In this document: in pieces, positions 3,515 to 64,000 of the stretch
How the letters are laid out: each line of letters starts with the position of its first letter
Position numbering within the stretch: the stretch's first letter is position 1
Origin: Nitrospira sp. ND1
Lineage (GTDB): Bacteria; Nitrospirota; Nitrospiria; Nitrospirales; Nitrospiraceae
Direction of reading: 5' to 3'
DNA: 64,000 bases
Assembly: GCF_900170025.1 (NCBI RefSeq)
Contig: NZ_FWEX01000006.1
Location: 838,795 to 902,794 of the forward strand
The notes under the pieces: model-generated
Told to the model about the DNA's origin: nothing
What the model saw: only the letters and a program-made list of their open reading frames with translations
The model's database searches: none
Position numbers and translations under genes: made by a program

Positions 3515-4095
3515 GAGCCACCTCGTCCGAGCTATGGAGTGATCAAGATTGACTGGGGGAGAGGTCCCCTTACACTGCTGTTCTCCCTGTCAAAAGCAAA
3601 CGGTATACCGGGTGAGGCGTCTGGTCACGCAGCGGTCAGGAGATAAAAACAAGTATTTGGAACCTCGCGAAATGTTTGCGGCGACCAGCAGGATGGCGGC
3701 GGGCACGGAAGCACGACGCAGACTTCACGGGAATCTTGGGAGGAACCAGCGGGCGTTCTCGTATCCGATACGATACGAGGGCGGTATCTGATGCGATACA
3801 AACGGTCATCGCAACGCGGCCCCTCTTCGCTCTGGCTTGCAATTGGTACTCTCCGATGATGCGCAAGCGTGCAGCTTCTCACCCTGAATGCACCCGGCGT
3901 TCAACCATCCCTTGAGCATGACCCATTGTGCATTGAACATTCCGCGACGAATCTCCCGCCGCATTATTCAGGCCACTTGCCTAGGCACTCCGCATTACTC
4001 GCCCGAACTGGAATTCCCTGCCCGAGAAGCCCCTTGACCACTAGGTCCTCCGGAAGATTGACTTCGCTCCGGCAGGTCGGTACGATCATCTTCGA
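3515..4095. other. 580-base non-coding stretch upstream of the TPP riboswitch
   Basis: No reading frame here looks like a protein. It must hold the divergent promoters for the 99-aa gene (-) and the thiC transcript (+). The only strong structure I see is the pair of GTATC/GATAC dyads listed separately. Confidence 0.5.
3759..3799. promoter_or_regulatory. Tandem operator-like dyads (GTATC-N6-GATAC)
   Basis: TCGTATC-N6-GATACGA lies at 3759-3778 and GTATC-N6-GATAC at 3784-3799. Both have six-base spacers and their centres are 23 bp apart, about two helical turns. This is the look of a double site for a dimeric repressor of TetR/MerR-like size. The cognate regulator is not evident in the window. 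Confidence 0.4.
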
Positions 4096-6202
<2,107 letters not shown>

Positions 6203-59306: not shown

Positions 59307-60383
59307 TTACGAGGGAAGGTTGCGCACAATCGCATCACCCATCTCAACGGTGCCGACCAGCTGCATGCCTTCGGCATGAATATCCTTGGTGCGGAACCCG
59401 AGTTCCAGCGTCTTGACGATGGCCTGCTCGATCGCCGCTGCTTCCTTGTCGAGCTGAAACGCATAGGACAACATCATTGCGGCAGAAGCGATCGTTGCAA
59501 TCGGATTGGCGATGTTTTTGCCGGCAATATCAGGCGCACTGCCATGGATCGGCTCGAACAACCCCACCTTGGCGCCGACACTGGCGGACGGCAACATGCC
59601 GATCGACCCGGTGAGCATCGCGGCTTCGTCGCTGAGAATATCCCCGAAGATGTTGTTGCACAGCAACACATCGAACTGCCGCGGATTACGCACCAGCTGC
59701 ATCGCGCAATTGTCGACATAGATGTGACTCAAGGCCACGTCGGGATACCCTTTGTGAACGTCCGTGACCACCCGCCGCCACAACTCCGAGGACTCCAGCA
59801 CATTGGCCTTATCCACCGAGGTGACCTTTTTACGGCGCTTGCGAGCCGCGTCGAACGCCACCACGGCAATGCGACGGATTTCCTCGGTCGTGTAGACCTC
59901 CGTATTGAAGCCACGCTCTCCGCCGCCCGGCAGCTTTTCAATCCCCTTCGGCTTGCCGAAATAAATCCCCCCGGTCAGCTCCCGGATCACGAGCATATCG
60001 ATGCCCTCAATCACGTCACGCCGTAACGTGGAGGCGTCGGCAAGCATGGGATAGAGCTTGGCCGGTCGGAGGTTGGCATAGAGTCCGAGTTGCTCCCGCA
60101 GCCCCAGCAAGGCCCGCTCAGGACGAAGGCTATATTCCAGACCTTCCCATTTTGGCCCGCCGACGGCGCCGAGCAACACGGCATCGCTGTGCTTTGCGAT
60201 GGCGAGCGTCTCAGCCGGAAGCGGCACGCCGACTTTATCGATCGCATGGCCGCCGACATCGCCGGATATAAATTCAAACGTATGCCCGTAGCGTTCCGCA
60301 ACGACCTTCAACACCTTGACCGCTTCCGGAACAATTTCACGGCCGACTCCATCTCCGGCCAGGACTGCGATTTTCGCGTTCAC
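59307..60383 (-). CDS. leuB: 3-isopropylmalate dehydrogenase
   Basis: 358 residues. Family motifs are [62 protein letters not shown], and [12 protein letters not shown] with the catalytic Lys. The later [20 protein letters not shown] is the NAD-binding signature. GTG start preceded by GGAGATCTGCAC. It oxidises 3-isopropylmalate in leucine synthesis. The leuCD genes are not in the window. Confidence 0.97.
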
Positions 60384-60401: not shown

Positions 60402-60764
60402 CTATCCACCAACGGCCTCATCCTCCGCGGTCCAGGCTGGATCGACCAGGCAGAGAAACTCAATCGGGGCTGTTCCATTGTTCACTAACGATTGCTTGGC
60501 CCCCGGGGGCACGTAGATCACGGAGCCCGCCTCAACCGCAACCGATTCGTCCTCCACCTTCATCACCCCCCGGCCGGCAATGAAGTAATACACTTCGGAA
60601 GATTTTAAGCGATGCCAGAGGCTCTGCTGACCCGGGGCGAGCAGTCCGTGCGCCAGGCTATATCCGAGCGCGAGCGATGCCTTTGCCGGGTGCAGCAATT
60701 CCCGCAGCCTGGTGTGATCGCCCGCCAAGAATTCCGGGCATCGTTGAAGATGCGTGTTTAGCAT
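60402..60764 (-). CDS. Small cupin protein
   Basis: 120 residues with a single cupin barrel: SLWHRLKSSEVYYFIAGRGV supplies the first metal motif (H...E), and VIYVPPGAKQSLVNNGTAPI the second. ATG 60764 begins MLNTHLQRCPEFL; the longer frame upstream is not needed by the fold. It lies between leuA and leuB in the same direction. Metal and substrate are unknown; mannose-6-phosphate-isomerase-like or dioxygenase-like roles are both possible. Confidence 0.82.
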   Translation of the reverse strand: MLNTHLQRCPEFLAGDHTRLRELLHPAKASLALGYSLAHGLLAPGQQSLWHRLKSSEVYYFIAGRGVMKVEDESVAVEAGSVIYVPPGAKQSLVNNGTAPIEFLCLVDPAWTAEDEAVGG

Positions 60765-60866
60765 CGTGCACCGAGATCCATAGTAGGAATGACAGACGAT
60801 GTCGCTCCGTCCAGTCCGATACGAACGCATCGGCCCGGACGGAGGAATCTACCCTGCAGGTTGGGC

Positions 60867-62414
60867 TCAAATCAAGCTGACCTTCTGAATCCCTTCAGCC
60901 TGTTTCGCAGCAAAATAGGCCAATTTATTGAGCGCATTCAGATAGGCCCGCGCAGCCGCCGTAATGATATCGGTATCGGCGCCATGGCCGGAGACCGTTC
61001 GACCGTCCTCTTCGACCCGCACCGACACCTCCCCTTGCGCATCCGTCCCGCCGGTAATGGCATTGACCCCGAACATCAGTAACTTGCTCTTCGTCTGGGT
61101 CATCGCGGCGATCGTCCGGTAGACCGCATCCACCGGGCCGTCGCCGGTTCCGCTGTGAGAGACCAGTTTCCCATCGATTTCCAATTCCACAGTCGCCGTA
61201 GGAGTCTTATTGGTTCCACTTTCGACTTGAAACGATTTCAATACCACCCGTTCCGACATTTTCGCGACTTCTTCGGACACAATGACTTCGAGATCTTCCT
61301 CATAAATCTCTTTCTTTTGATCGGCCAGCCGCTTGAATCGTTCAAACGCGTGGTTGACCTCTTCTTCCGTCAACTTATAGCCCAAATCCTCGAGCCGCTG
61401 ACGAAACGCATGGCGCCCGGACAACTTGCCCATCACCAGCTTGACCTGCTCAAGACCGACAGATTCAGGCCGCATGATCTCGTAGGTCGTCTTATCTTTC
61501 AGCAACCCATCCTGGTGAATCCCCGACGTGTGGGCGAAGGCATTGGCACCGACAATGGCCTTGTTCGGTTGGATAACCATACCGGTAATCTTGCTCACCA
61601 GGCGGCTGGTTTTGGAAATCTCCTCCGCCACGACCTTGGTGTCAGCCCCGTACCAGTCTCTACGCGTCCGGAGACCCATCACAATCTCCTCCAGCGAGGT
61701 GTTGCCGGCCCGCTCGCCAATGCCGTTGATCGTGCACTCGACCTGCCCGGCCCCTGCCACCACCGCCGCCAAGCTGTTAGCGACGGCCAGCCCCAAATCG
61801 TTGTGGCAATGGACGGAGATGACGGCTTGCCCGCTATTCGGAACACTGTCTTTGATCCGCTTGATCAGGCCGCCGAACTCTTGAGGCACGGCATACCCCA
61901 CCGTGTCGGGAATATTGATCGTTCCCGCCCCGGCCGCAATGACCGCCTCGATCACTTCGCACAGATACGCCGGATCGGACCGGCTCGCGTCCATCGGTGA
62001 AAATTCGACGTCATCCACATAGGTGCGAGCCAACTGCACCATCTCCACCGCGCGCTTCTTCGCTTCCTCGCGGGTCATCCGGAACTGGTGCTTGAGGTGG
62101 ATGTCCGACGTCGAGAGAAACGTATGGATCCGCACACGGGGCGCGCCCTTCAACGCTTCCGATGCCTTCGTGATGTCTTCCGGCCTGGCCCGCGCCAGGC
62201 TGCACACCACTGGGCCTTCAACCTCCAAGGCGATCCGACGAACCGCTTCGAAATCTCCCGGCGAACTATAGGCGAAACCGGCTTCGATGATATCCACGCC
62301 GAGGCGCGCCAGCTGCTTGGCGATCATAAGTTTCTCTTCGACGTTCATGCTCGCCCCCGGTGACTGCTCACCGTCCCGCAACGTCGTATCGAATATTCTG
62401 ATCATCCTGGTCAT
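60867..62414 (-). CDS. leuA: 2-isopropylmalate synthase
   Basis: 515 residues. The N-terminal catalytic barrel has FDTTLRDGEQSPGASMNVEE and the metal motif HCHNDLGLAVANSLAAV. The C-terminal LeuA allosteric domain (about 390-500, ATVELEIDGKLVSHSGTGDG) is present, so feedback inhibition by leucine is expected. GGAGG before the ATG. A leucine T-box precedes it, so both enzyme and transcription are leucine-controlled. Confidence 0.97.
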   Translation of the reverse strand: MTRMIRIFDTTLRDGEQSPGASMNVEEKLMIAKQLARLGVDIIEAGFAYSSPGDFEAVRRIALEVEGPVVCSLARARPEDITKASEALKGAPRVRIHTFLSTSDIHLKHQFRMTREEAKKRAVEMVQLARTYVDDVEFSPMDASRSDPAYLCEVIEAVIAAGAGTINIPDTVGYAVPQEFGGLIKRIKDSVPNSGQAVISVHCHNDLGLAVANSLAAVVAGAGQVECTINGIGERAGNTSLEEIVMGLRTRRDWYGADTKVVAEEISKTSRLVSKITGMVIQPNKAIVGANAFAHTSGIHQDGLLKDKTTYEIMRPESVGLEQVKLVMGKLSGRHAFRQRLEDLGYKLTEEEVNHAFERFKRLADQKKEIYEEDLEVIVSEEVAKMSERVVLKSFQVESGTNKTPTATVELEIDGKLVSHSGTGDGPVDAVYRTIAAMTQTKSKLLMFGVNAITGGTDAQGEVSVRVEEDGRTVSGHGADTDIITAAARAYLNALNKLAYFAAKQAEGIQKVSLI

Positions 62415-62483
62415 GGCTTACCCTCCTCCTGTCCCGCAGCTTGCTCAAACGGATCTTCCAACGCGGCCGCAGGCGAGAAAACA

Positions 62484-62562
62484 CCGGAGGCGTACCCTCT
62501 GGGGTACGTTGAGGATGTTTTCGAGCCGAGAACAAAATTGGAAGGCCGTTTCAGCATGCTGC
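62484..62562 (+). repeat. Dispersed repeat, copy C
   Basis: GGCGTACCCTCTGGGGTACG, TTGAGGATGTTTTCGAGCCG, AGAACAAAA and TTTCAGCATGCTGC correspond block by block to copy A in the thiC-thi4 gap. It lies between the T-box terminator and leuA, so the leuA transcript carries the repeat in antisense orientation in its 5' region. Confidence 0.8.
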
Positions 62563-62566
62563 CAAT

Positions 62567-62601
62567 AAAAAAAGCCTCCGCCCCGGGACAGGGACGAAGG
62601 C
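62567..62601 (-). terminator. T-box intrinsic terminator
   Basis: On the minus strand GCCTTCGTCCC and GGGGCGGAGGC pair with two G-T pairs around a six-base loop and are followed by seven T. It is the expression platform of the leucine T-box and overlaps the antiterminator alternative. Confidence 0.9.
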
Positions 62602-62825
62602 CTTGCGAGCTTCGTGGTACCACCCTGATTCAGCGAGGGATGAAGTATGTCCTTCATCCGAACGCCCTTCATTCAATCCGTGACGCGGATCATTCGGAAC
62701 CCATTACAACCCCGGGGGGCTTCACAAGTCCAGCTCAGAGGCGAGTTCGGCAGATCACCGGCTGGTTCGCACCATCCACCAGCTCTCTCAGTTCGGTCAG
62801 CGCTGCCTACTACTCCTCGTCGTCG
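62567..62825 (-). ncRNA. Leucine-type T-box leader
   Basis: The minus strand carries the T-box landmarks in order. Near the 5' end of Stem I come GAGAGAGCTGGTGGATGGTG and CGAACCAGC. The specifier region CCGAACTCGCCTCTGAG then offers CTC, a leucine codon, at the expected place after GAA. The universally conserved AGGGTGGTACCACG (62613-62626) is the antiterminator bulge that pairs with uncharged tRNA, and a terminator follows. It starts just after the pssA stop and regulates leuA by tRNA(Leu) charging. Confidence 0.93.
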
Positions 62826-62831
62826 CTGTTG

Positions 62832-63632
62832 TTACTCTCTCGAATCGAGTACCGGCGTGTCCGTTTTCGCCACCGGCTTCCCTGCACTCTTGCTCACCAT
62901 CGTCCACAGACGCGCCAATGGACCCGACACGGCGTACCCGGTAAACGTCACGAACAACATCGCCTGCGGCCAGGCGACAATCAGCATCAGCGCAAGAATC
63001 CCCCACACCAGATAGGTGAAATGATCCCCACGCCGGAACTTCATGTCCTTGAAGCTGCGATACTTGATCGTGCTGACCATCAAGAACGCCAGCGCGAACG
63101 TGATCACGAGGATCAACAGCGGCTTCACTTCCGAGCCCATCTGGGTGATGTGCAGATCGAAGATCACCAACGACGCAATGACACCGGCTGCGGCAGGAAT
63201 AGCCAAGCCCGTGAAGTATTTGCTGTCGGAGGTGCTCACCGTCGCATTGAACCGGGCCAGGCGAACCGCCCCCATGGCCACATAGGCAAACATCACTGCG
63301 ACCCCGAACATGCCCTGGCCGCTCAGCGCATAGGAATAAATCAGCACGCCAGGTGCGACCCCGAACGACACCACGTCGGAAAGAGAATCATACTCGATGC
63401 CGAACTGGCCGGTACTGTTCGTCAGTCGGGCCAACTTCCCGTCCAACATGTCGAAAATCATGCCGACCAGAATGGCGATGGCTGCCACCAGATGCTGCCC
63501 GTTAAACACCGACAGGATCGCGAACACGCCGCAGAACAGATTTCCCGTCGTGCAGAGGTTCGGGATCAGATACATGGCCTGTCGCTTTCGATTGCCCTTC
63601 GCAAACGGAGCTCGCATGGCCGGTGATTTCAT
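62832..63632 (-). CDS. pssA: CDP-diacylglycerol-serine O-phosphatidyltransferase
   Basis: 266 residues with about eight membrane helices. The CDP-alcohol phosphatidyltransferase motif is DMLDGKLARLTNSTGQFGIE then YDSLSDVVSFGVAPG, that is DG-x2-AR-x8-G-x3-D-x3-D. The start overlaps the psd stop by four bases. It makes phosphatidylserine, the substrate of the Psd encoded just upstream. The leuA T-box begins a few bases after its stop. Confidence 0.96.
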   Translation of the reverse strand: MKSPAMRAPFAKGNRKRQAMYLIPNLCTTGNLFCGVFAILSVFNGQHLVAAIAILVGMIFDMLDGKLARLTNSTGQFGIEYDSLSDVVSFGVAPGVLIYSYALSGQGMFGVAVMFAYVAMGAVRLARFNATVSTSDSKYFTGLAIPAAAGVIASLVIFDLHITQMGSEVKPLLILVITFALAFLMVSTIKYRSFKDMKFRRGDHFTYLVWGILALMLIVAWPQAMLFVTFTGYAVSGPLARLWTMVSKSAGKPVAKTDTPVLDSRE

Positions 63633-64000
63633 CGGAGTTCCCCCACGATGGTTTCGCCCCCTTTGACGCGGTCACCCAAGGAGACACAAATCTTCGAGCC
63701 GAGCGGAAGGAAGGTATCCATCCGCGACCCAAACCGTATCAGCCCAAACCGCTCTCCCCGCTCCACACGATCACCCTGCCCGACCCAGCACACGATCCGC
63801 CGGGCAATCAGCCCGGCAACCTGCACACATAGCACTTTCGCCCCTGACTCCGTCTTCAGCATCACGGCGTTCTGTTCGTTTCTGAGCGTCGCCTCCGGCT
63901 TGCTCGCCACGAGAAACTGGCCGGGCTGGTAACTCACACCCTCCACCGTCCCAGCGCAGGGCATCCGGTTCACATGCACATCGAAGACGTTCAAGAACAC
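63629..64000 (-). CDS. psd: Phosphatidylserine decarboxylase, C-terminal part (cut by window end)
   Basis: The last 123 residues of a protein whose start lies beyond the right edge; the GTG at 64000 is not a true start. FLNVFDVHVNRMPCAGTVEG is the family core and RFGSRMD carries the Gly-Ser self-cleavage site that generates the pyruvoyl group. The short form, ending soon after (GETIVGEL), is the compact bacterial/archaeal type. It converts phosphatidylserine to phosphatidylethanolamine. Confidence 0.93.
   Translation of the reverse strand: MFLNVFDVHVNRMPCAGTVEGVSYQPGQFLVASKPEATLRNEQNAVMLKTESGAKVLCVQVAGLIARRIVCWVGQGDRVERGERFGLIRFGSRMDTFLPLGSKICVSLGDRVKGGETIVGELR

Follow-up and report, generated by a model that had tools for sequence, protein, structure and literature searches.

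Gene organization at the pssA-leuA junction

This study analyzed a 64,000-nucleotide stretch of DNA from Nitrospira sp. ND1 (the window), near the end of which a T-box leader separates pssA from leuA. The genes lie on the minus strand in the order ilvB-ilvN-ilvC-psd-pssA-[T-box]-leuA-(cupin)-leuB, and the arrangement ilvBNC-psd-pssA-[T-box]-leuA is retained in relatives. The psd gene (63629-64000, identified by a model match) runs off the window edge and overlaps pssA by 4 nt; ilvC, ilvN, and ilvB follow further upstream on the same strand, beyond the window (locus L165). The upstream neighbor of the leader, pssA (62832-63632), matched TIGR00473 at 128 bits (cut-off 107), and its stop codon meets the T-box.

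Downstream, the first gene that the leader would gate is leuA (60867-62414), encoding 2-isopropylmalate synthase, which scored 734.6 bits against TIGR00973 (cut-off 598.7) and was also above the cut-off of NF002086. The 3-isopropylmalate dehydrogenase gene leuB (59307-60383) matched TIGR00169 at 518.6 bits. Between the two is a small cupin-like open reading frame (60402-60830) that occupies the same place in relatives; it had no match in NCBIfam, and the designation cupin was read from its sequence. The spacer between the terminator of the leader and leuA (62421-62561) consists of one copy of a partly palindromic repeat that is dispersed in the genome (43 matches), and the leuA start lies approximately 150 nt past the terminator, on the far side of this repeat.

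Identification of a full-length T-box

T-box switches are well known from Gram-positive bacteria. An earlier note, made from the letters of the window alone, had proposed that a leucine T-box precedes leuA in a host other than a Firmicute and had suggested a covariance-model scan as a check. The scan with the Rfam T-box model RF00230 returned a match at 62832-62587 on the minus strand, covering model positions 1-219, the full length of the model, with a score of 91.3 bits and an E-value of 1.4e-20. This match, upstream of leuA, was the only one in the whole host genome (4.45 Mb) and is far above chance. The host is indeed not a Firmicute, and it shares its genus with Nitrospira sp. UBC2.

With the terminator and its T-run added to the RF00230 match, the whole leader spans 62567-62832 on the minus strand. 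Its 5' boundary is the pssA stop codon (62834-62832), and its 3' boundary is the terminator T-run at 62567. The extent first assigned to it (62567-62825) was therefore correct to a few bases and is revised here to 62832-62567.

The default Rfam scan of the window with curated cut-offs listed only a TPP riboswitch. The T-box was absent from this list because its 91.3 bits fall just under the gathering cut-off of 93 bits, which is a curation line and not a biological feature. Only 47 of the 94 Nitrospirota T-box matches passed this cut-off, indicating that the Rfam default conceals approximately half of the T-boxes in this phylum. The TPP riboswitch itself (RF00059) is located at 4091-4194 on the plus strand and scored 63.7 bits.

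Anatomy of the leader and its cognate tRNA

The claimed landmarks were all present, comprising the CTC specifier (62745-62743), AGGGTGGTACCACG (62626-62613), and the terminator (62604-62567). Stem I (62732-62827) is of the long form with an AG bulge and a distal loop; it was defined by the Rfam alignment and by covariation in 48 sequences. The AGUA strand of the specifier loop (loop E) lies at 62808-62811 and is conserved across the alignment, and the leucine specifier codon CUC (62743-62745) stands in the expected GAA-CUC-G context. The stem II helix region (62697-62731) and the stem III hairpin ahead of the antiterminator (62638-62659) showed compensatory change in 5 of 6 and 7 of 8 pairs, respectively.

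The antiterminator (62590-62626) carries the T-box sequence AGGGUGGUACCACG with a UGGU bulge at 62622-62619, and 100% of its cells were paired in the 48 sequences. It is followed by an intrinsic terminator (62567-62604) composed of a hairpin at 62604-62571 and a T-run at 62573-62567. The 3' strand of the antiterminator, UUCGUCCCU, serves in large part also as the 5' strand of the terminator hairpin, and the two structures are mutually exclusive through the strand that they have in common, UUCGUCCC. The computed energy of the antiterminator alone was weak (-4.8 kcal/mol), whereas that of the terminator was strong (-23.7 kcal/mol), and termination would therefore be the default.

Ten long tRNA genes were read in the genome, and five of them encode tRNA-Leu, with the anticodons UAA, UAG, CAA, CAG, and GAG. 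The tRNA-Leu(GAG) gene (L070) has the discriminator A (A73) and an encoded CCA and fits both the CUC specifier and the UGGU bulge, which is complementary to A73-CCA of this tRNA. The specifier was CTC in 91 of 93 Nitrospirota T-boxes and CTG, also a leucine codon, in the other two. Both CTG specifiers belong to the host family (L014 of genus g10 and L018 of genus g8) and represent a natural switch to another leucine codon.

Covariation of the leader structure

Covariation was examined in an alignment of 48 T-box copies (47 from the host family and one from family f8) over a 50-pair structure. Standard pairs occupied 95.3% of cells, compared with at most 47.6% in slid registers. Changes on both sides of a pair, which are compensatory, were observed at 30 of the 50 pairs and amounted to 295 cells in the true register, against 94 in shuffles and at most 71 in any slid register. 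The stem I helices were 87-100% paired across the 48 sequences, and terminator pairing was retained in 95.2% of cells among relatives. At the level of sequence, the membership of the element in its class is secure, and it is a genuine canonical leucine T-box.

Origin of the transcript and proposed mechanism

The motif TTGAC[CG]-17/18-TA[CG][CG]AT was present approximately 100 to 170 bases ahead of ilvB in 17 of the 18 host-family or Nitrospira loci checked; in the window genome it has an extended -10 (TGATACGAT). A consensus scan revealed no sigma70-like site on the T-box strand between ilvB and the T-box of the window genome. Just ahead of stem I, the mean of the best sigma70-like score was 6.2-6.6 of 12 across all loci, compared with 6.0-6.2 in pssA control windows, and no promoter above control was found before the T-box in the host family by this sigma70 consensus scan, which weak or non-sigma70 promoters could escape. 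At the same site, the same scoring detected promoters in f8 (TTGACA-18-CATAAT, 11/12) and in f14 (TTGACA-17-TAAGAT, 10/12) and is therefore able to detect promoters at the position of the T-box. In genera g1 and g4, synonymous variation showed no dip at the 3' end of pssA.

The earlier note had left a choice between a promoter inside pssA and attenuation of an incoming psd-pssA transcript. The scan, the synonymous variation, the pssA-leuA adjacency in relatives that have no T-box, and the ilvB motif give better support to attenuation; the incoming transcript, however, probably starts at ilvB and not at psd, as judged from the promoter motif. On the basis of the ilvB motif, the lack of a promoter signal ahead of the T-box, and the lack of a synonymous dip, we favor a model in which one transcript starts at ilvB and the T-box acts on it as a valve within the operon, and we infer co-transcription of the genes on both sides of it.

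Alternatively, a promoter within the pssA coding sequence might account for most transcription of the T-box, and leuA-leuB would then form an independent unit. This arrangement would accord with the near-consensus promoters situated exactly here in f8 and f14, of which that of f8 overlaps the pssA stop codon, and with the unrelated sequence upstream of the T-box in Geobacter, Sumerlaeota, and Omnitrophota, as if leuA headed its own unit. We nevertheless consider it unlikely for the host family, in which the best score ahead of stem I equals that of the pssA control windows and synonymous variation does not drop at the pssA 3' end, and in which the window genome has no promoter-like site on that strand from ilvB to the T-box. 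The spacing varies within the family: stem I starts -2 to +5 nt from the pssA stop codon in 44 of the 79 members, and the gap exceeds 25 nt in 29, leaving room for a promoter. In Nitrospirota loci that have no T-box, pssA lies directly before leuA in 48 of 50 cases, 28 of them at a distance of -25 to +15 nt, and this adjacency suggests that the two genes belong to an old operon and have no promoter between them.

Two further explanations appear highly improbable. A relic, that is, a former T-box that has lost switching, would agree with the score slightly under the curated cut-off but not with the presence of the element once in each of the 79 family genomes, always with a leucine codon as its specifier, nor with the strong covariation and the retained terminator pairing. 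A translational T-box that masks the leuA ribosome-binding site, a type that exists in Actinobacteria (PMC7583486), is equally hard to reconcile with a hairpin and T-run placed directly 3' of the antiterminator, with the distance to leuA across the dispersed repeat, and with the hairpin and tail of at least TTTT that relatives retain at the terminator position.

We therefore return to the mid-operon valve. The element very probably works as a canonical transcriptional T-box for tRNA-Leu(GAG) placed inside the operon, a reading drawn from its sequence features. RNA polymerase would start upstream of ilvB and transcribe ilvBNC-psd-pssA at any leucine level, and the nascent RNA at the T-box would then test the charging of tRNA-Leu. 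When tRNA-Leu is charged, the terminator at 62604-62567 would form, transcription would stop after pssA and before leuA, and leuA and leuB would remain unexpressed. When it is uncharged, we infer that it binds the leader, with the anticodon pairing with the CUC specifier and the tRNA 3' end (ACCA) pairing with the UGGU bulge; this pairing would stabilize the weak antiterminator and permit read-through into leuA-(cupin)-leuB.

Gating would be limited to the leucine branch, and the shared branched-chain enzymes and the phospholipid genes would be ungated. The suggested tie between the leucine genes and the lipid genes requires correction: the terminator is located 3' of psd-pssA, and leucine would therefore not regulate the lipid genes, which lie upstream of the valve. 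The position of the element points to a simple way of running a branched pathway, in which the shared genes are on and only the branch for the missing amino acid is gated.

Comparison with known leucine-responsive leaders

The closest described counterparts are the leuA T-boxes reported in Geobacter and Pelobacter (PMC2494555; PMC2700814), which are of the same RNA class, precede the same gene, and have a CUC specifier for which tRNA-Leu(GAG) has been predicted (PMC2700814). They differ in context: none of four Geobacter loci has the T-box immediately behind pssA (approximately 2.6 kb separates the two in Geobacter sp. OR-1), whereas that of the host family lies inside ilvBNC-psd-pssA-leuA. 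T-boxes have also been reported in Chloroflexi and Deinococcus. The leucine T-boxes of Bacillota, such as those of Paenibacillus, share the full landmark set and the transcription terminator, and 74% of leucine T-boxes use CUC as their specifier (PMC7778990). Bacillota genomes, however, contain many T-boxes (855 in 53 genomes; PMC2494555), whereas Nitrospirota carriers have one per genome, always at leuA.

Leucine-rich attenuators of the leuL type, such as the leucine-rich attenuator peptide of S. aureus (PMC5794164), answer the same physiological signal and control genes of the same kind, but they sense ribosome stalling at leucine codons and do not sense tRNA directly.

Distribution and evolution of Nitrospirota T-boxes

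Exactly one T-box was found in 94 of 295 Nitrospirota genomes, including all 79 of the host family and scattered members of f5, f8, f13, f14, and f17. No T-box was detected in the 19 sampled genomes of f2 and f3, which belong to the same order as the host. The view that leuA T-boxes outside Firmicutes and Actinobacteria are sporadic is thus contradicted by the complete occupancy of the host family, and those of Geobacter had already been reported (PMC2494555; PMC2700814). A fixed-pattern scan of named genomes, which is not a census, also revealed leuA T-boxes in Geobacteraceae, Thermomicrobia, Sumerlaeota, and Omnitrophota. Several Chloroflexota instead have one ahead of ilvB, which shares the CUC specifier and would gate the entire pathway.

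Our literature search yielded no report of a T-box in Nitrospira or Nitrospirota, and the sole paper in it that contained both T-box and Nitrospirae concerned RNase P; T-box databases lay outside the search, so absence of an earlier record is not proven by it. Within the literature searched, the phylum is apparently new for T-boxes, as are apparently the fixation in one family and the mid-operon placement. The described range of the T-box would thereby be extended by a phylum and, within it, by an entire family to which Nitrospira belongs.

The T-box sequences of Geobacter and Nitrospirota grouped together, against those of Bacillota and most Chloroflexota (91/96, with the sequences from other phyla selected by pattern). 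That the Nitrospirota T-boxes arose only once was neither rejected (p-AU 0.23) nor demonstrated. The LeuA tree required at least nine changes of state, in which gain and loss were indistinguishable. Families f1 and f2 formed a firm clade; the nesting of f2 inside f1 was undecided (p-AU 0.36), and it bears on whether f2 lost a T-box.

Other putative leucine sensors at the pssA-leuA junction

No T-box signal was detectable at the junction in the sister family f2. Most f2 leaders (L136-L154) contain a short open reading frame just past pssA with a run of leucine codons, followed by a terminator; examples of the peptides are MDQWQGKGRGTLLLGD..., MRKLQGKGRATLLLCKN..., and ...CLLLAKD*. At least three leucine codons within four were observed in 10 of 16 f2 leaders, compared with a mean of 0.61 and a maximum of 3 after shuffling, a count in which related leaders are not independent. 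Judging from these sequences, the short reading frame is probably a ribosome-dependent leucine leader-peptide attenuator, and the sister family thus seems to use a device of the leuL type at this junction.

A third arrangement was found in f8: in six of the seven genomes (L357-L362), the stem I of the T-box is ultrashort (54-64 nt) and lacks the distal, elbow-binding platform. Each of these T-boxes has a CUC specifier and a terminator and is preceded by a near-consensus promoter of its own, TTGACA-18-CATAAT in five cases and TTGACA-17-TATCAT in one. The seventh genome, G262 (L182), has an empty site with 23 nt between pssA and leuA. The f8 form, unlike the long stem I of the window element, resembles the ultrashort translational T-boxes of Actinobacteria (PMC7583486) in its stem I without the platform, but it differs from them in its terminator and leucine specificity. 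The platform has been described as expendable in translational T-boxes and essential in transcriptional ones (review PMC7583486), a requirement that the f8 form would contradict if the assignment is true.

It is an evenly balanced question whether leucine sensors interchange at the pssA-leuA junction of Nitrospirota within a fixed gene order. The occupants would be a long T-box valve without a promoter in the host family, a promoter-bearing ultrashort transcriptional T-box in f8, a leucine-rich leader peptide in f2, or no element at all, in which case the genes overlap. Junctions with no element, a T-box, a leader peptide, or a T-box with its own promoter would then make up a natural series for studying the gain, loss, and swap of cis-regulators. 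In f14, the junction T-box of L094 has a full stem I and only 58 nt from the specifier to the T-box sequence, a distance at which stem II seems to be missing.
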